The position numbers and the translations under genes are program-made. From Actinacidiphila paucisporea (lineage in GTDB: Bacteria; Actinomycetota; Actinomycetes; Streptomycetales; Streptomycetaceae), in NCBI RefSeq assembly GCF_900142575.1, contig NZ_FRBI01000035.1, forward strand, positions 1-64,000: DNA of 64,000 nucleotides, written 5' to 3'. Within the stretch, counting starts at the first letter, position 1. Each line of letters begins with the position of its first letter. Below, in pieces: positions 17,796 through 30,087 of this stretch. The notes under the pieces were generated by a model, which was given only the letters and a program-made list of their open reading frames with translations, was not told where the DNA came from and made no database searches.

Positions 17796-21436
<3,641 letters not shown>

Positions 21437-21517
21437 TGACCGGAGGGCCTCGTAACGGCCGGTCCGGGCCGACGTCGTAGCGTTCCCGAACGCCGGCCGT
21501 GGGCGTACGGCCGCCGG

Positions 21518-22738
21518 CTACTCGGGGCGGGCCGCCTCGAAGCCGCCGGCCGCGTGTTCGGTCCCGGCGCCGACCGGGCGCTCGGCCCCGGTACCGGCCG
21601 TACGCTCCGGGTGCGCGGGCCAGCCGCCCGCCGGGACGACGGCGACCTCGCGCCACCACCAGTCGTCGGGCTGCGGGTCGGCGGGCTCGAAGGGCGCGCC
21701 GACCCGAGGGACGGCGATCTTCGAGCCGGTTCCGCGGGCCGCGGCCACCGTGCCCTCGGCGGGGTCGGCCCAGGCGTGCTGGGCGAGGTTGAAGGTGCCC
21801 CAGTGGATGGGCAGCATCACGCCGCGCGGGGTGCCGCCCGACAGGTCGGTGTGCGCCCGCATGCCCTCGGCCGGGGTCATGTGGATGTCGGGCCAGAACT
21901 CGCTGTAGGCGCCGACCTGGATCATCGTGGCGTCGAAGGGGCCGTGCTCGGCGCCGATGTCGGCGAAGCCGGGGAAGTAGCCGGTGTCGCCGCTGTGGAA
22001 GATCCGGTGGGTGCCGTCGGTGACCGCCCAGGACGCCCACAGGGTCTGCTGCCGGCCGCGCAGGCCGCGCCCGCAGAAGTGCCGGGCGGGGGTGGCGGTC
22101 AGGTGCAGGCCGGCGATCTCGGTGGACTCGTTCCAGTCCAGCTCGTGCAGCCGGGCCGCGGGCACTCCCCAGTGCTCCAGGTGCGCGCCGACGCCCAGCG
22201 GGACCGCGAACACGACGTCGCTGCGGACGAGTTCGAGGATGCTCGGCATGTCGAGGTGGTCGTAGTGGTCGTGCGAGATCACCACGACGTCGAGTCCGGT
22301 CAGCGAGCCGAGCGGGACCGGCGCGGGGTGCATGCGCCGCGGGCCGGCGAAGGGGAAGGGAGAACAGCGCTCGCCCCACACCGGGTCGAACAGCACCCGG
22401 CGGCCGCCGATCTCGGCCAGCACGGTGGAGTGGCCCATCCAGGTCAGCCGCAGCCCGGACGCGGGCGGCACCGCGATGTCGGCGAGCGTCGTGGGGTGCA
22501 CCGGGATCGGCCTGGCCGGCTTCCTCGGCACCCGGGCCTCCTTGCGGAGGGTCGCGGGCAGTGACTTGAAGAATTCGCTTCCAGGGCCGGGGCGGGCGCC
22601 GACCGGGTTCACGAAAGCGCCGTCCGCGTAGTTCGGCGACCGAAGGATACGGTCGAGGCGCGCGCCCGTGGGGTCGGCCCCGAACGCCGCGGGGCGCGCT
22701 TTCACGAGGCGGGACGGCTGACGGCCGGCGCCGGTCAC
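21518..22738 (-). CDS. Metallo-beta-lactamase-fold hydrolase (NAPE-PLD/UlaG-like)
   Basis: A 406-residue protein started at GTG 22738, which has an excellent GGAGGAA ribosome site; the open frame to 22885 is a low-complexity extension. The metal-binding motif SHDHYDHLD sits near residue 165, further His/Asp ligands are in ATPARHFCGRG and HSGDTGYF, and IHWGTFN gives the last histidine. An N-terminal extension of about 80 residues (SPNYADGAFVNPVG) and the fold resemble NAPE-hydrolysing phospholipase D-like and RomA-like proteins. It is probably a zinc phosphodiesterase or lactonase in the cytosol. The last 40 residues are Gly/Ala-rich and not conserved in character. Confidence 0.88.
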   Translation of the reverse strand: MTGAGRQPSRLVKARPAAFGADPTGARLDRILRSPNYADGAFVNPVGARPGPGSEFFKSLPATLRKEARVPRKPARPIPVHPTTLADIAVPPASGLRLTWMGHSTVLAEIGGRRVLFDPVWGERCSPFPFAGPRRMHPAPVPLGSLTGLDVVVISHDHYDHLDMPSILELVRSDVVFAVPLGVGAHLEHWGVPAARLHELDWNESTEIAGLHLTATPARHFCGRGLRGRQQTLWASWAVTDGTHRIFHSGDTGYFPGFADIGAEHGPFDATMIQVGAYSEFWPDIHMTPAEGMRAHTDLSGGTPRGVMLPIHWGTFNLAQHAWADPAEGTVAAARGTGSKIAVPRVGAPFEPADPQPDDWWWREVAVVPAGGWPAHPERTAGTGAERPVGAGTEHAAGGFEAARPE

Positions 22739-23146
22739 GTTTCCTCCAGGTACACAGACGTCCTGATCGGCGGAATATCCGCCTGTTCCATTATGCGGGC
22801 GCGACCGGATCTTCACGGAGGCGCCCCGCGGCGCCCGCCCGGGCCCCGCGGCACTGCTCGGGCGCGGGCTCTGCGCGGCGCCCACCCGGCTCCCGCGGCG
22901 CCGCTCAGGCGGGGGGCCCTGCGCGGTGCGCTGCCTGCCCGCGGCCGGGTCGTGCGGGCGCGGGAAGACCGGGCCTGGTGGCGCATCTGCCCGGGTCGAG
23001 GGCAGACGTGCTGGTCACAGCCGTGCCGACCGCGGGTCAGATGGCGCAACACAGTGGCAACACCATCCGGGCGCGCTCGTCGGTATGGTCCGTGCACGGC
23101 GGCGACGTCGCCGTGGGAGCGGGACGAGACCGAAGCGGAGAAGTCG
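22739..23146. other. Divergent promoter region, MBL hydrolase / GntR operon
   Basis: 408 very G+C-rich bases. A short dyad GGCGGA-ATA-TCCGCC at 22769-22783, 31 bases upstream of the hydrolase start, could be an operator. The middle part (22800-22970) has low-complexity GC-rich sequence without a supported gene. The promoter of the GntR operon should lie in the right third. Confidence 0.4.
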
Positions 23147-23908
23147 ATGGCAGCCGACCGCACGCAGCAGCGTCCCGCGGGCGCCGCGCGGCGGCGGCTG
23201 CGGGCGGACCAGGCACGGCAGTTGGCGGATCTGCTGCGGCAGCAGGTGCTCGGGCAGGTCTTCGCGGGCGGCGTGCTGCCGCACGAGGACGCGCTCGGGG
23301 CGGAGTACGGGGTGTCGCGGAACACCGTGCGGCAGGCGCTGGACCTGCTGCGCGCCGAGCACCTGGTGGAGCGGGTTCCGGGGCTGGGCACGGTCGCCGT
23401 GGGGCAGAAGTATCCGCACGGTCTCGACCGGCTGATGGGGCTGGCGGAGACGCTGCACGGGCACGGGCAGGTCAGCAACGAGGTGCGCGCGCTCGGCCCG
23501 GTGCGCGCGCCGGCCGCGGTCGCGTCGCGGCTGCGGATCAAGGAGCACGACGACGTGCTCTACATCGAGCGGTTGCGGCGGCTCGACGGCCTCCCGCTGT
23601 CGCTCGACCTCACCTACATCCCGATGGACCTGGGCATCGGCCTGCTCGATGCCGATCTGGAGAACAACGACGTCTTCCGGCTGCTGGAGCAGGTCGCGGG
23701 CCGGCCGCTCGGCACCGCCGAGATCACGCTGGAGGCGGTCAGCGCCGACCTGCACTCCGCGACCGTGCTCGAAGCGCCGCGCGGCGCCGCCCTGTTGATG
23801 CTGGAACGGCTCACCCATCTGTCCGACGGCCGCCCGGTGGACCTGGAGTTCGTCCGCTTCCGCGGCGACCGGATCACCATGCGCGGACTGCTGCACCGCA
23901 GCTCCTGA
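23147..23908 (+). CDS. GntR/UTRA-family transcriptional regulator
   Basis: A 253-residue regulator starting at ATG 23147, eight bases past a GGAG site. The winged helix (about 20-85) shows LLRQQVLGQVFAGG and YGVSRNTVRQALDLLRAEH. The ligand-binding UTRA domain (about 95-248) includes VLYIERLRRLDGLPLSLDLT and ends in DLEFVRFRGDRITMR. It heads a rightward operon (ferredoxin, binding protein, permease, ATPase, flavoprotein) and is separated from the ferredoxin gene by only 42 bases. It likely represses the operon until a small effector, perhaps the imported substrate, binds. This is inferred from family behaviour. Confidence 0.9.
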   Translation: MAADRTQQRPAGAARRRLRADQARQLADLLRQQVLGQVFAGGVLPHEDALGAEYGVSRNTVRQALDLLRAEHLVERVPGLGTVAVGQKYPHGLDRLMGLAETLHGHGQVSNEVRALGPVRAPAAVASRLRIKEHDDVLYIERLRRLDGLPLSLDLTYIPMDLGIGLLDADLENNDVFRLLEQVAGRPLGTAEITLEAVSADLHSATVLEAPRGAALLMLERLTHLSDGRPVDLEFVRFRGDRITMRGLLHRSS

Positions 23909-23950: not shown

Positions 23951-24178
23951 ATGCCTGTCGTGCCGCAGCGCGCCGACGTGCCCGTGACCATCGACGAGTC
24001 CCTGTGCATCGACGGCTGCACGCTGTGCGTCGACATGTGCCCGCTGGACTCCCTGGCGATCAACCCGGAGAGCGGCAAGGCCTTCATGCACGTCGACGAG
24101 TGCTGGTACTGCGGCCCGTGCGCGGCCCGCTGTCCGACCGGTGCGGTGACCGTCAACATGCCCTATCTGCTGCGTTGA
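23951..24178 (+). CDS. Two-cluster [4Fe-4S] ferredoxin, AprB-like
   Basis: A 75-residue iron-sulfur protein. Cysteines 19, 23, 26, 30 (CIDGCTLCVDMCP) and 51, 54, 57, 61 (CWYCGPCAARCP) provide ligands for two [4Fe-4S] clusters. The segment between them (INPESGKAFMHVDECWYC) resembles the beta subunit of dissimilatory adenylylsulfate reductase, where KAF and ECW-C motifs occur in the same order. The longer C-terminal tail of true AprB is absent. It should shuttle electrons to or from the flavoprotein encoded at the end of the operon. Ribosome site GGAGACAG precedes the ATG. Plain bacterial ferredoxin is the alternative reading. Confidence 0.88.
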   Translation: MPVVPQRADVPVTIDESLCIDGCTLCVDMCPLDSLAINPESGKAFMHVDECWYCGPCAARCPTGAVTVNMPYLLR

Positions 24179-24189
24179 GAGGTGCTCGG

Positions 24190-25614
24190 ATGCGCAAGAT
24201 CCTGGTGGCGGCGGGTGCCGCCGCCCTCCTGCTGCCGCTGGCCGGCTGCGGCTCGGACGCGGGTGGCGGGAGCGGCTCGAAGACCGTGACCGTGCACGTC
24301 GGGTACCAGTCCAAGACCATCAACACGGTGACTGCGGGAACCCTGTTGCGTTCCCTCGGTTATTTCGAGCAGCAGCTCAAGGCGCTCGGGCAGCGCGACG
24401 GGACGACGTACAAGGTCGACTGGCAGGACTACGCGACCGGTGCGCCGATCACCGCGCAGATGGTGGCGGGGAAGATCGACGTCGGGTCGATGGGCGACTT
24501 CCCGCTGCTGATCAACGCAGCCCGCGGGGTGCAGCTGCGGCAGCCCACCGAGCTGGTGTCGGTGACCGGCTACAACCTGCGCGGTGGGCTCAACATGGTG
24601 GTGACCGCGCCGGATTCGAAGCTGACCGACCTGTCGGGCCTGCGCGGCGGCAAGGTGTCGACCAGCATCGGCTCCGCGGCCGACGGCACGCTCGTACGGG
24701 CCCTGCGGCAGCGCGGCATTGACGCGGACCACGATCTGCACAAGCTCAACCAGCAGCCGGCGGTGGGAGCTTCGGCGCTCCAGGCGGGCAGCGTGGACGC
24801 GCTGTCGCAGTTCGTCGCCTGGCCTGGGCAGTTGGTCTTCGACGGCAAGGCGAAGGCGCTCTACGACGGGGCGGCGCTGAATCTGCCGACCTTCCACGGG
24901 GTGGCCGTGCGCAGGGCCTTCGCCGAGCAGCGGCCCGCGGTGGTGGACGCCTTCCTGGCGGCGCAGGTCGAGGCCACCGACTACCTGCACGCCCATCCGC
25001 TGGACGCCGCGCAGAAGGTCGCCACCGCCACCGGCCTGCCGCCCGAGGTGGTCTACCTCTACAACGGCCCCGGCGGCATCGCCACCTTCGACCCGACGAT
25101 CAAGAAGCAGCTGCTGGACGCGTTCGCCGAGGACGTGCCGGTGCTGGCCTCGGAGAAGCTCGTCGGGAAGATCGACATCAGCCACTTCGCCGACGACAGC
25201 TTCATCCGGCGGGCGGTCGGCGCCGACTACGACCGGCAGGCCGCCTCACTGGCCAACCCGGCGCCGGTGACCGGCACCGACCCGCTGTGCGGGGGGAAGG
25301 TGGCCGACCCGGCGACGGCGAGCGAGGCGTGGCCGGCCGGGCAGCAGCGGACGGTGCCTTTCACCACCCCGAGCTGCCTGCTGCGGTATCTGCGGCAGCA
25401 TCCGGGATCCGCGGTACGTGCCGCGTACGTGCCCGACGCGCTGACCGGGACGCGGTGGTTCGCCGACCGCGCGGTGTGGGCGACCGATCCGGCGGCCGGG
25501 GCCGCCGACCGCTTCCAGCCGTTCACGACCCAGGAGAACGCCGCGAAGTGGCTGGCCGCCCATCCGGGTTGGCACCTGGTGGACTTCGCGCGGGCCGTCG
25601 AGGGCGCGTCGTGA
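24190..25614 (+). CDS. ABC importer substrate-binding lipoprotein with NosL-like C-terminal domain
   Basis: A 474-residue lipoprotein; lipobox LAGC places the lipid on Cys20. Residues 32-350 form a periplasmic-binding fold of the nitrate/sulfonate/taurine (TauA/SsuA) class: VHVGYQSKTINTVTAG, a helix with MVAGKIDVGSMGDFPLL, then ALQAGSVDALSQF. After a short linker, about 358-474 form an extra domain with Cys367 (DPLCGGKV), Cys396 (TTPSCLLRYL), the strand AAYVPDALTGTRWF and FTTQENAAKWLAAHPG. Its order resembles NosL, a copper-binding lipoprotein domain. I know of no standard sulfonate binding protein with this extension. It starts at ATG 24190, eleven bases past the ferredoxin stop. Confidence 0.87.
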   Translation: MRKILVAAGAAALLLPLAGCGSDAGGGSGSKTVTVHVGYQSKTINTVTAGTLLRSLGYFEQQLKALGQRDGTTYKVDWQDYATGAPITAQMVAGKIDVGSMGDFPLLINAARGVQLRQPTELVSVTGYNLRGGLNMVVTAPDSKLTDLSGLRGGKVSTSIGSAADGTLVRALRQRGIDADHDLHKLNQQPAVGASALQAGSVDALSQFVAWPGQLVFDGKAKALYDGAALNLPTFHGVAVRRAFAEQRPAVVDAFLAAQVEATDYLHAHPLDAAQKVATATGLPPEVVYLYNGPGGIATFDPTIKKQLLDAFAEDVPVLASEKLVGKIDISHFADDSFIRRAVGADYDRQAASLANPAPVTGTDPLCGGKVADPATASEAWPAGQQRTVPFTTPSCLLRYLRQHPGSAVRAAYVPDALTGTRWFADRAVWATDPAAGAADRFQPFTTQENAAKWLAAHPGWHLVDFARAVEGAS

Positions 25615-26543
25615 CCGGCGAGGCGCGGGCGTACCGCTACCTGCTGCGTACGGTCTCGCTGCTGGCCTTCCTCGGCGCGTGGCAGGCGGTGACCGCGCTG
25701 CGGGTCCATCTGTGGGTGCACTTCGAGCAGTTGCCGACGGTGGTGCAGGTCGGCAAGGAGTTCGGGCACCGGCTCGGGACCGGCGCCTACTGGCAGGATC
25801 TCGGCGACAGCCTGGACCGCATCCTCACCGGCTTCGGTCTCGCCGCGGTGCTGGGGGTGGCCTTCGGGGTCGCCATCGGGCGCTCACGGCTCGCCGAGGA
25901 CCTGCTCGGTCCGATCGTCGAACTGCTGCGGCCCATACCGGCGATCGCGCTGGTGCCGGTGGCGATCCTGCTCTTCCCGAGCAACGAGCAGGGCATCGTC
26001 TTCATCACCTTCTCGGCCGCCTTCTTCCCGGTCCTGGTCAGCACCCGGCACGCGGTGCGCGCGCTGACCCCGGTGTGGGAGGAGGCCGTGCTGACCATGG
26101 GCGGCGGCCGGTGGCGGGTGCTCGCACAGGTCGTGCTGCCCGGCGCGCTGCCGGGCATCTTCGGCGGCCTGTCGGTCGGCATCGGCGTGGCGTGGATCTG
26201 CGTGATCTCCGCGGAGATGATCTCCGGTCAGTACGGGGTCGGCTACCGCACCTGGCAGGACTACACGGTGGTCGACTACCCGGGTGTGCTGGTCGGCATG
26301 GTCACCATCGGGCTGCTGGGCCATCTCACCTCCTCGGCGGTGGAGTTCGCGGGCCGCCGGGCCACCCGCTGGCTGCCGCGCACCGAACAGGGCGCGGACC
26401 GCGGCGCGATACGCCGCCGGGCTCGCACGTCCCCCGCGCCGGTGCGCGGTTCCCTCTCCGCGCCGGAAGGCGTGAGCGAGGACAGGCCGCGGACCGATCC
26501 CGTGCCCGTGCCCGTACCCGACTCCGCAACTCCCGGCAGGTGA
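25611..26543 (+). CDS. ABC importer permease (SsuC/TauC type)
   Basis: A 310-residue inner-membrane subunit starting with GTG 25611, overlapping the binding-protein stop. It has about six transmembrane segments and the coupling helix EEAVLTMGGGRWRVLAQVVL in the cytosolic loop that contacts the ATPase. The motif ELLRPIPAIALVPVAILLF is typical of nitrate/sulfonate/taurine permeases. The last 60 residues are a charged, Pro-rich cytosolic tail that is longer than usual. It forms a binding-protein-dependent importer with its neighbours at 24190 and 26549. Confidence 0.93.
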   Translation: MTGEARAYRYLLRTVSLLAFLGAWQAVTALRVHLWVHFEQLPTVVQVGKEFGHRLGTGAYWQDLGDSLDRILTGFGLAAVLGVAFGVAIGRSRLAEDLLGPIVELLRPIPAIALVPVAILLFPSNEQGIVFITFSAAFFPVLVSTRHAVRALTPVWEEAVLTMGGGRWRVLAQVVLPGALPGIFGGLSVGIGVAWICVISAEMISGQYGVGYRTWQDYTVVDYPGVLVGMVTIGLLGHLTSSAVEFAGRRATRWLPRTEQGADRGAIRRRARTSPAPVRGSLSAPEGVSEDRPRTDPVPVPVPDSATPGR

Positions 26544-26548
26544 CCGCG

Positions 26549-27340
26549 ATGACGCTCTCCGCCCCCTCCACCCCCTCCCGCGTCCCGCGGCCGCCCGCCG
26601 CGGACGGCGCCCGGCTCACGCTTCGCGACGCGGTGCTGGGGCGGCGCGGCGCCCCGGTGCTCGCCGGTGTCGGGCTCGACGTGGTGCCCGGCGAGGTGCT
26701 GGCCGTGGTCGGCGCCTCCGGGTGCGGCAAGTCGACGCTGCTGCGCACCCTCGCCGGGCTGCTGCCGCCGCTCGGCGGTGAGGTGGCCGAGGACGGCCGC
26801 CCGCTGACCGGGCCGGGCGGTGGGCGGGCGCTGGTCTTCCAGGATGACGGGCTGCTGCCCTGGCGCACCGCCCGCGCGAACGTCGAACTCCCGCTGGCCA
26901 TCGGCAAGATGCCCAGGTCGCAGCGCAGGGCGCGGGCGGTGGAGTGGCTGGGGCGGGTCGGCCTCACGGGCTGCGAGGACCGGTTGCCGCACCGGCTGTC
27001 CGGCGGGCAGCGGCAGCGGGTGCAGCTGGCCAGGGCTCTGGCCGGGCGGCCCAGGGCGCTGCTGATGGACGAGCCGTTCGGGGCGCTGGACGCCCAGACC
27101 CGCGCGGGGATGCAGCAGTTGCTCGTCGACGTGCTGCGCTCGACCCGCGCGACGGTCGTCTTCGTGACCCATGACGTGGACGAGGCGCTCTTCCTCGGCG
27201 ACCGGGTGGCGCTGCTCGGCTCGTCGCCTGCCGCGCCGGTACGGCTGGTCGCGGTGCCGCGGCCGCGCGACCGGGCCGCGCACGACACGGCCGCGACCGC
27301 CGCCGTACGCCGTGACCTCCTCGAATCGCTGGCCAGTTGA
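26549..27340 (+). CDS. ABC importer ATP-binding protein (SsuB/TauB type)
   Basis: A 263-residue ATPase. Walker A GASGCGKSTLL is near residue 55, the Q-loop is VFQDDGLLPW, the signature LSGGQRQRVQLARAL, Walker B ALLMDEPFGALD and the H-loop FVTHDVDEALFL. These match the nitrate/sulfonate/taurine importer class. ATG 26549 is chosen because AGGTGA precedes it at a suitable distance; a GTG at 26540 that overlaps the permease stop is possible. It energises import of the operon's substrate. The stop is 26 bases ahead of the flavoprotein start. Confidence 0.93.
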   Translation: MTLSAPSTPSRVPRPPAADGARLTLRDAVLGRRGAPVLAGVGLDVVPGEVLAVVGASGCGKSTLLRTLAGLLPPLGGEVAEDGRPLTGPGGGRALVFQDDGLLPWRTARANVELPLAIGKMPRSQRRARAVEWLGRVGLTGCEDRLPHRLSGGQRQRVQLARALAGRPRALLMDEPFGALDAQTRAGMQQLLVDVLRSTRATVVFVTHDVDEALFLGDRVALLGSSPAAPVRLVAVPRPRDRAAHDTAATAAVRRDLLESLAS

Positions 27341-27366
27341 CGCCGCCGACCTCCGAAAGGCCATCG

Positions 27367-30087
27367 ATGGACATCCCCGAGCTGACCGACGCCGAGGAAT
27401 TCGGCTGCGACGTGCTGGTGATCGGCGGCGGAACGGCCGGGACCATGGCCGCGCTGACCGCCGCGCAGAACGGCGCCGACGTACTGCTGCTGGAGAAGGC
27501 GCACGTACGGCACTCGGGCGCGCTGGCGATGGGCATGGACGGGGTCAACAACGCGGTCGTGCCGGGGCGGGCGGAACCGGACGACTACGTCGCCGAGATC
27601 ACCCGCGCCAACGACGGCATCGTCAACCAGGCGACCGTCCGGCAGACCGCGACCCGCGGCTTCGCCATGGTGCAGCGGCTGGAGCGCTACGGCGTGAAGT
27701 TCGAGAAGGACGAGCACGGGCAGTACGCGGTCCGGCAGGTGCACAGGTCCGGCAGCTACGTGCTGCCGATGCCGGAAGGCAAGGACGTCAAGAAGGTCCT
27801 CTACCGGGTGCTGCGGCGGCGCGAGAACCGCGAGCGGATCCGGATCGAGAACCGGGTGATGCCGGTGCGCGTACTGACCGCCGGCGGGCGGGCGGTGGGC
27901 GCGGCGGGCTTCAACACCCGCACCGGGCGCTTCGTCACCGTACGGGCGGGCTCGGTGATCCTGGCGACCGGTGCGGCGGGCCGTCTCGGCCTGCCCGCCA
28001 GCGGCTACCTGTACGGGACGTACGAGAACCCCACCAACGCCGGTGACGGGCACGCGATGGCCTACCACGCCGGCGCCGAACTCAGCGGGATCGAGTGCTT
28101 CCAGATCAACCCGCTCATCAAGGACTACAACGGGCCCGCGTGCGCCTACGTCGCAAACCCCTTCGGGGGCTACCAGGTCAACCGGCACGGCGAGCGGTTC
28201 GTGGACTCCGACTACTGGTCGGGCCGGATGATGAGCGAGTTCGCGGCCGAGGTCGCCTCGGAGCGCGGCCCGGTCTACCTCAAGCTCAGCCATCTGCCGG
28301 AGGAGTCGGTGGCGGCCCTGGAGACCATCCTGCACTCCACCGAGCGGCCCACCCGCGGCACCTTCCACGCCGGGCGCGGCCACGACTACCGCACGCACGA
28401 CGTGGAGATGCACATCTCCGAGATCGGCCTGTGCGGGGGCCATTCGGCGTCCGGGGTCTGGGTGGACGAGCACGCCCGCACCACCGTGCCCGGGCTCTAC
28501 GCGGCCGGCGATCTGGCCTGCGTGCCGCACAACTACATGATCGGGGCCTTCGTCTACGGCGAGTTGGCGGGCGCGGACGCGGCCGGCCGGCCGCGCTACG
28601 AGGGGCCCTTGCCCGCCGACCAGTTGGCGGCGGCGCACGAGCTGGTCTACCGGCCGCTGCGGCACCCGGAGGGGCCGCCGCAGACCCAGGTCGAGTACAA
28701 GCTGCGGCGCTTCGTCAACGACTACGTGGCGCCGCCCAAGAGCGGGGCCAGGCTGTCGCTGGCGGTCGAGTCGTTCGAGCGGATGCGCGGCGAGATCGAG
28801 GCGATGGGCGGGCACACCCCGCACGAGCTGATGCGGTGCGCCGAGGTGTCCTTCATCCGGGACTGCGCCGAGATGGCGGCGCGGTCGTCGCTGGCCCGCA
28901 CCGAGAGCCGCTGGGGGCTCTACCACGAGCGGACCGACCACCCCTCGCGGGACGACGCGGGGTGGCTGCACCACCTCAACCTCCGCAAGGGGGCGGGCGG
29001 GTCGATGGAATTCCTCACCCGGCCGGTGGCGCCCTACGTAGTGCCCGTGGAGGGCTTCGCACCGGCCGGCGGTGAGGTGCGGGTCATCGGGGAGGTGCGG
29101 CCCGAGCAGGTCGCGACGGCCGGTCGGCGGGAGGTCCCGCCACTCGACCCCGGGGCGGTGGCAGCGCGGCCTTCCGGGTCCGCCTCCGCCTCCGCGGCGG
29201 GCGGCTCGCCGCGGATCCTCGCGCTGCTCGAACTCGCCGAGCGGGAACCGGCGCTGGCGGACCTCGCGCCGTATCTCGCCGACGGCGACGCGTCGGTACG
29301 GCGTGCCGCCGTCGACCTGCTGACCGAGACGGTCCCCGCAGGCACCGGTCCGGCGCTGGCCGCGGCACTCGCCGACCCGGACGCCGGGGTGCGGGGCACC
29401 GCGGGGGCCGGGCTGCTGGAACTGGTGGAGGTCCTGCCGCCCACGCCGGAGCTGGGCGCCGCGCTGGCCGCGGCGATGGGCCACCCCGACCCTGCCGCCA
29501 GGGCCGCCGCCGCGGGCACGCTGCGGGAGCTGCGCCTCGGCGAGGCCGCCCTCTTCGCCGACGCGCTCGGCGACGCCGAACCGCGGGTGCGGTTGGAGGC
29601 GGTGCGCGGGCTCGTCGCGCTGGACGCGGCCGACGCCCTCGCCGTCGTCGCGGACGACGCGTCGCGCGAGGTGCGGGTGGCCCTTGCCAAGGGGCTCGCG
29701 GCCGTACGGGCCGCCGGCGCGGTCGCCCTGCTCGGGCGGCTGGCGGTGGACCCGGACCCGCTGGTGCGGGCCGCGGCTCTGGAGTCCGCCGGGGCCGTCG
29801 GCTGCCCGCCGCCGCTCGACGCGGTCGCGGTGAGCGCGGGTGCCGACGCGTCGTGGCGGGTGCGGAAGGGGGCGGCTCTCGCGCTCGCCCCGGTCGGCCG
29901 GGAGATCGCTCTCCCGGTCCTGCTGCCGGCCGCGGCCGACCCGCACGCCGATGTGCGGCGGGCCGCCGTCACCGCGCTCGGCCGGCATGCGCCTTTGCCT
30001 GACGTCCGTGCCGTTCTCGCCGGGGCGGCCGCCAACGACCCGGACCCCGATGTCCGCGCCTTCGCCAGCCGCGCCCTCACCCCCTGA
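27367..30087 (+). CDS. AprA-like flavoprotein oxidoreductase fused to HEAT repeats
   Basis: A 906-residue protein starting at ATG 27367 behind GAAAGG. Residues 1-590 belong to the FAD-dependent fumarate reductase/succinate dehydrogenase/APS reductase superfamily: GGGTAGTMAALTAAQNGADV binds FAD at 20-39, RHSGALAMGMDGVNNAV resembles the AprA signature, and GLYAAGDLACVPHNYM closes the FAD site. After a Ser/Ala linker (about 595-612), residues 613-906 are HEAT/PBS-lyase-type repeats (ADPDAGVRGTA, DAEPRVRLEAVRGL, DPDPLVRAAAL). The AprB-like ferredoxin in the same operon is the obvious electron partner. The reaction is unknown; oxidation or reduction of a sulfur compound is the leading idea from the importer class. 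Confidence 0.85.
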   Translation: MDIPELTDAEEFGCDVLVIGGGTAGTMAALTAAQNGADVLLLEKAHVRHSGALAMGMDGVNNAVVPGRAEPDDYVAEITRANDGIVNQATVRQTATRGFAMVQRLERYGVKFEKDEHGQYAVRQVHRSGSYVLPMPEGKDVKKVLYRVLRRRENRERIRIENRVMPVRVLTAGGRAVGAAGFNTRTGRFVTVRAGSVILATGAAGRLGLPASGYLYGTYENPTNAGDGHAMAYHAGAELSGIECFQINPLIKDYNGPACAYVANPFGGYQVNRHGERFVDSDYWSGRMMSEFAAEVASERGPVYLKLSHLPEESVAALETILHSTERPTRGTFHAGRGHDYRTHDVEMHISEIGLCGGHSASGVWVDEHARTTVPGLYAAGDLACVPHNYMIGAFVYGELAGADAAGRPRYEGPLPADQLAAAHELVYRPLRHPEGPPQTQVEYKLRRFVNDYVAPPKSGARLSLAVESFERMRGEIEAMGGHTPHELMRCAEVSFIRDCAEMAARSSLARTESRWGLYHERTDHPSRDDAGWLHHLNLRKGAGGSMEFLTRPVAPYVVPVEGFAPAGGEVRVIGEVRPEQVATAGRREVPPLDPGAVAARPSGSASASAAGGSPRILALLELAEREPALADLAPYLADGDASVRRAAVDLLTETVPAGTGPALAAALADPDAGVRGTAGAGLLELVEVLPPTPELGAALAAAMGHPDPAARAAAAGTLRELRLGEAALFADALGDAEPRVRLEAVRGLVALDAADALAVVADDASREVRVALAKGLAAVRAAGAVALLGRLAVDPDPLVRAAALESAGAVGCPPPLDAVAVSAGADASWRVRKGAALALAPVGREIALPVLLPAAADPHADVRRAAVTALGRHAPLPDVRAVLAGAAANDPDPDVRAFASRALTP

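Follow-up and report, generated by a model that had tools for sequence, protein, structure and literature searches.

Within the 64,000-nucleotide stretch of Actinacidiphila paucisporea DNA analysed here (hereafter, the window), the lipoprotein receptor of a putative ABC importer continues for more than a hundred residues beyond a complete substrate-binding fold. This layout raises the question of what the extra domain is and whether, as the first-pass annotation proposed, it supplies a copper or thiolate ligand site, which would hint that the imported substrate is a metal complex or a thiol. The fold and homology of the domain, its conservation across phyla, the loss of two methionines, the presence of its cysteines as both or none, and the conserved gene cluster around the receptor (Table 1) are all computed results; the substrate and the role of the domain are matters of interpretation and are treated as such below.

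Table 1. Coordinates of the receptor, its parts and the adjoining genes in the window.
Feature	Coordinates	Strand	Basis
GntR/UTRA regulator	23165..23908	+	Pfam GntR and UTRA above cut-off; 24/24 relatives
Small ferredoxin with two 4Fe-4S motifs	23951..24178	+	Pfam; 24/24 relatives
Receptor lipoprotein, 474 aa, with an SsuA/TauA-like substrate-binding part and a C-terminal NosL-fold domain	24190..25614	+	Frame translation, Pfam, model
Substrate-binding part, residues ~31-350	24280..25239	+	Foldseek, alignment with TauA
NosL-fold domain, residues 357-474	25258..25611	+	Predicted model, structure and profile comparison
Cys367, at the position of the CXM cysteine in NosL; methionine missing	25288..25290	+	Joint alignment
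Cys396, occurring solely together with Cys367; probable disulfide partner	25375..25377	+	Alignment, tree
ABC permease, 4-base overlap with the receptor gene	25611..26543	+	BPD_transp_1, 69.8 bits; 23/24 relatives
ABC ATPase	26549..27340	+	ABC_tran, 107.2 bits; 22/24 relatives
SdhA/AprA-like flavoprotein fused to HEAT repeats	27337..30087	+	PRK13800, 1546.7 (cut-off 1196), HEAT_2; 22/24 relatives

The receptor and its C-terminal domain

The translation, Pfam and Foldseek bear out the layout given in the first-pass annotation, namely, about 115 extra residues after a TauA/SsuA-type fold, the cysteines at positions 367 and 396, the strings AAYVPDALTGTRWF and FTTQENAAKWLAAHPG, and the stated length. 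The receptor cysteines are residues 20 (lipobox), 367 and 396; AAYVPDALTGTRWF begins at residue 411 and FTTQENAAKWLAAHPG at residue 445, and residue 357 corresponds to base 25258. The cut-offs of two Pfam families are passed (NMT1_2, 46.1 bits with a cut-off of 24.7; NMT1, 35.1 bits with a cut-off of 20.5), and in the Foldseek search with the model of the full receptor (pLDDT 80.6, pTM 0.81), SsuA and TauA are the top matches. The residues up to about 350 are thus predicted by the model to adopt the fold of sulfonate- and taurine-type receptors. In TauA, Gln30 contacts the sulfonate (PMC6906117). The glutamine of the window receptor that aligns with it, Gln40, is kept in all 53 aligned receptors, and Thr234, His236 and Gly237 are likewise invariant, TauA having the threonine alone of these three. 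The fold and the sulfonate-contacting glutamine are therefore common to SsuA, TauA and the window receptor, which differs from both in the added C-terminal domain and in scoring below the respective NCBIfam cut-offs (SsuA_fam, 123.7 vs 163.5; taurine model, 67.5 vs 304.25).

The model of the domain, produced with AlphaFold2 for residues 357-474 from 23 sequences (pLDDT 90.6, pTM 0.85), was aligned with the 247 chains ranked highest by Foldseek. Among these, the closest structure is that of NosL (7og7; Z 12.7, 112 residues, 2.5 A), the copper chaperone of nitrous oxide reductase. The first five rows of the comparison are NosL chains and rows 6-14 (Z 6.8-8.8) are MerB and one further NosL; MerB, the organomercurial lyase, in the fold of which soft ligands are handled, reaches Z 8.8, and other folds follow only from Z 3.5 downward. 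The comparison with NosL- and MerB-like folds that had been suggested for the domain thus places NosL best and MerB next.

The domain of the window receptor itself matches the Pfam NosL family (PF05573) with E 0.0084 and 16.9 bits, below the cut-off of 24. The family model also matches the domains of 13 out of 23 close orthologues (E limit 10; best 3.3e-6) and of 20 out of 31 diverse members (E limit 1; best 2.5e-8), and a distant actinobacterial member, L049, exceeds the cut-off with 33.1 bits. A Pfam NosL scan of the whole genome containing the window, at E <= 10, gave no match and missed the window's own domain too; with a profile of the receptor-fused domains (hereafter, SBP domains), the window's copy is the sole match in this genome. 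This profile, built from 31 SBP domains hand-picked for diversity out of the 53 aligned proteins, was compared with a profile of eight NosL proteins, six of them annotated as NosL in plasmid records and two found with the Pfam NosL model. The hhalign score was 97.3% (E 2e-11) over 102 columns and 97.35% in a scripted rerun, compared with at most 0.43% for 50 column-shuffled NosL alignments and 0.86% for the reversed one. A sequence-profile search of the PDB chains with the domain found no NosL, the best match being a nanobody (E 0.28). Given the structural match and a profile score far above those of the shuffled and reversed controls, the domain and NosL very likely share descent, and the NosL-like assignment made from the sequence at the outset holds.

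The megaplasmid of Cupriavidus metallidurans carries a stand-alone NosL-like frame, next to a permease-like frame (L078), that weakly matches the SBP-domain profile (E 1.7e-4); this match serves as a cross-check of the kinship between the domain and NosL.

Distribution of the fusion and the metal ligands

The receptor fusion with a NosL-fold domain is widespread, being found in Actinomycetota, proteobacteria and cyanobacteria; a search for other binding proteins of this architecture, proposed in the first-pass annotation, returned many from several phyla. Conservation of the domain in orthologues, which the same annotation had set as a test, holds in the sets compared, with a tblastn match in 24 out of the 24 relatives represented by genome contigs and retention in all 53 aligned proteins, again from several phyla. 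Among 396 sampled actinobacterial genomes, 15 (including that of the window) encode the domain, at 17 places and in frames that are all at least 388 residues long; the receptor part also matches at each of these 17 loci. The receptor matches 45 plasmid records, in 39 of which one place covers at least 80% of the query, and the listed matches include rhizobia, Methylobacterium, Paraburkholderia, Cupriavidus, Variovorax, Acinetobacter and cyanobacteria. When the domain alone was the query, 11 plasmid records were found, of which 10 recur among the listed receptor matches and the last carries the annotation 'substrate-binding protein'. All these domain matches sit on receptors and, therefore, no other architecture was found in the plasmid records.

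Three copies depart from the full-length form. In plasmid pLAtc3 of Acidithiobacillus caldus (L061, 5938-6936), the gene for an ISL3-type transposase shares bases with the final part of the receptor gene, and the receptor terminates ahead of the NosL-like domain. Two of the 24 genome-contig relatives have an interrupted frame: the Saccharopolyspora copy (L019, 8001-9392) is broken by an internal stop, and the Kibdelosporangium copy (L024, 8001-9226) is frameshifted, defects that may be either sequencing errors or signs of decaying genes.

Conserved features of the NosL family are a CXM motif and a second methionine (Bennett et al. 2019, PMC6530538). All eight NosL proteins have both methionines in the joint alignment, and neither is found in any of the 31 SBP domains, 24 of which, including that of the window, are entirely free of methionine. 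Judging by this alignment, the copper ligands of NosL are lost from the receptor-fused domain. What the domain has kept in common with NosL, apart from the fold and detectable descent, is a core Asp (30 of the 31 SBP domains), a core Phe (31 of the 31), each present in all eight NosL proteins, and an Ala/Ser position. Across the 53 aligned proteins, Trp381 and Phe445 of the domain are invariant, and Asp416 is present in 52.

Cys367 and Cys396 occur together in 18 of the 53 proteins and are both missing in the remaining 35, with no case of a single cysteine. The 53-protein table is exclusive of L019 (internal stop), L024 and L039 (frameshift), L029 (the window itself), the matches from the NosL search (L047-L050) and the later finds (L061-L066). 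On visual inspection, the cysteine pair is present in L019 and L024 and entirely missing from L049, which is the same gene as L039. On a tree built by a quick method from the receptor part alone, and including some long branches, the cysteine pair requires five changes, at least four of which are forced by well-supported branches. Because joint gain or loss is the expectation for a disulfide between extracytoplasmic cysteines, Cys367 and Cys396 probably form an optional disulfide bond. The catalytic residues of MerB are Cys-Asp-Cys. The domain has the same core fold as MerB, and both of its cysteines are missing in 35 of the 53 proteins.

With the methionine ligands lost and the cysteine pair absent in most of the proteins, a copper or thiolate site on the domain is unsupported and was rejected. 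The suggestion of a metal complex or a thiol as the substrate, which had been derived from such a site, loses its support accordingly.

Gene neighbourhood, substrate and possible roles of the domain

The regulator, the ferredoxin and the receptor with its domain follow in the same order in all 24 genome-contig relatives; the permease is present in 23, and the ATPase, the flavoprotein and the HEAT part in 22 (L003 reaches the contig end, and L019 is without these genes). Beyond these relatives, the neighbours were surveyed at 17 annotated plasmid loci with incomplete gene tables, the receptor regions L051, L056, L063 and L066 falling outside the survey for want of annotation. The permease and the ATPase adjoin the receptor at 16 of the 17 loci, the exception being L061, and the flavoprotein and the ferredoxin are found at 14 (all except L042, L043 and L061). 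At these 14 loci, the HEAT repeats are encoded by a separate gene in 13 and, judged by length, in a fusion in one (L052). An arylsulfatase gene lies near the receptor in L042 and L043, accompanied in L043 by a formylglycine-generating enzyme and a SulP transporter. Overall, organosulfur genes are next door to the receptor at seven of the 17 loci (L042, L043, L044, L046, L060, L062 and L065) as a raw count, and none was seen at the other 10, within the limits of the incomplete tables. The same incomplete tables of the 17 loci contain no annotated nos, copper or mer gene; the fused domain thus differs from NosL, as well as from MerB, in its genomic setting, which consists of importer and flavoprotein genes rather than nos genes.

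The SsuA/TauA-like fold, the conservation of Gln40 in all 53 receptors and the neighbouring genes favour an organosulfur anion as the substrate class, which is where these features point instead of a metal complex or a thiol. The NCBIfam models for SsuA and the taurine receptor are not passed and, therefore, the substrate could be another anion. The reading that we prefer, with about even confidence, is that the protein serves as receptor in the ABC import of an organosulfur anion and is equipped with a metal-free NosL-fold accessory module involved in docking or gating. The N-terminal Venus-flytrap part would bind the anion, a sulfonate or a sulfate ester, and the C-terminal domain, having lost the copper ligands, would act as the accessory module; in the most speculative step, this module would most likely dock on or gate the receptor or its permease.

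Three other roles have to be weighed against an accessory module. It is highly unlikely that the domain retains a NosL-like copper or thiolate site for loading or sensing a metal or a thiol: the NosL fold and homology are genuine, Cys367 aligns with the CXM cysteine and the 18 proteins with both cysteines may possess a two-thiolate site, but this is opposed by the loss of the methionines in all 31 SBP domains, by the 35 proteins without the cysteines and by the gene tables just described, incomplete as they are, with their lack of nos, copper and mer genes. The domain might instead be a second ligand site, using residues that do not correspond to the copper ligands to bind or pass on a sulfur compound, such as the substrate, a thiol or sulfite. 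This appears unlikely, even though the same fold accommodates soft ligands in NosL and MerB and Trp381, Phe445 and Asp416 are nearly or fully invariant; the Asp and the Phe belong to the core shared with NosL, so their conservation can be structural.

Retention of the domain in all of the aligned proteins, across several phyla, is hard to reconcile with the third role, that of an inert leftover of gene fusion with no effect other than stabilising the protein, and this explanation seems rather improbable. Two observations fit it nevertheless: the domain diverges faster than the receptor part (mean identity per column among close orthologues of 54%, compared with 66% over the full-length protein), and the receptor has a Paenibacillus relative (L063) that ends without the domain and manages without it. 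A further reading, to which we assign a low probability, is that recruitment of the NosL/MerB fold took place early, prior to dispersal over multiple phyla, and made it a metal-free second site on an organosulfur receptor, recognising or gating a sulfur compound prior to import and working with the APS-reductase-like flavoprotein and the ferredoxin inside the cell. If true, this early recruitment would imply an undescribed system for organosulfur uptake and processing.

In the literature searched, outside of which most subscription papers lie, no binding protein with a NosL domain was found described. On this ground, the combination of a sulfonate-type receptor and a NosL-fold domain free of metal is considered new, both parent families being known. 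The expectation of novelty in the first-pass annotation is thus upheld as far as a published description is concerned, and is qualified by the finding that the fusion is not rare and occurs in several phyla. A fold associated with the chemistry of copper and mercury appears to be reused without the metal ligands in a large family of receptors, the members of which are annotated just as 'ABC transporter substrate-binding protein', so that a match to NosL alone should not be equated with copper binding. The analysis also flags a conserved, poorly named gene cluster that is probably involved in sulfur scavenging.

The flavoprotein and comparison with the Asf and Sao systems

The flavoprotein in the window, apart from its match to PRK13800, a family for which we know of no tested function, matches the model of the APS-reductase alpha subunit (PRK06854) with 265.6 bits, under the cut-off of 557. 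In the actinobacterial loci, the flavoprotein and the HEAT part form one fused protein; in those proteobacterial and cyanobacterial loci that have the flavoprotein, the HEAT part has a gene of its own. At 13 annotated loci of the latter kind, the HEAT protein, the flavoprotein and the ferredoxin are separate genes, joined in several cases by a DUF971 gene. Fusion in actinobacteria and co-location as separate genes elsewhere suggest that the HEAT part and the flavoprotein work together.

The cluster resembles the asf cluster (asfRABC), which is linked to aromatic sulfonates (PMC4267179): both combine a flavoprotein or reductase, a ferredoxin, a binding protein and a transporter. Because the genome paper on C. 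metallidurans names AsfA/AsfB in this strain (PMC2864759), the megaplasmid of C. metallidurans was searched with the window flavoprotein. No close homologue was found in this unannotated record (best match, 31% identity, E 5e-25), which is also not among the 51 records that match the flavoprotein at E <= 1e-60; a ferredoxin-like frame lies alongside L075, which is one of the two best matches on the megaplasmid. With merely distant matches on the megaplasmid, identification of the flavoprotein as AsfA was dropped, and the cluster can therefore be called Asf-like in layout only.

Sao is an organometal system. The best NCBIfam match of the permease is SaoP, and SaoA is among the best matches of the ATPase, all far below the cut-offs (SaoX, 32.9 vs 300; SaoP, 127.5 vs 295; SaoA, 185.5 vs 360). 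Identity with the Sao system (PMC10418091) was rejected on these scores, and the SaoP and SaoA matches perhaps reflect general kinship among importers only.

Upstream of the cluster, the translations indicate a beta-galactosidase-like gene (17808-20822, + strand), a GNAT-like gene (20819-21436, + strand) and a gene for a protein resembling the metallo-beta-lactamase fold (21518-22885, - strand). Of the 24 genome-contig relatives, only the two closest, L001 and L002, have these three genes (17808-22885) next to the cluster.
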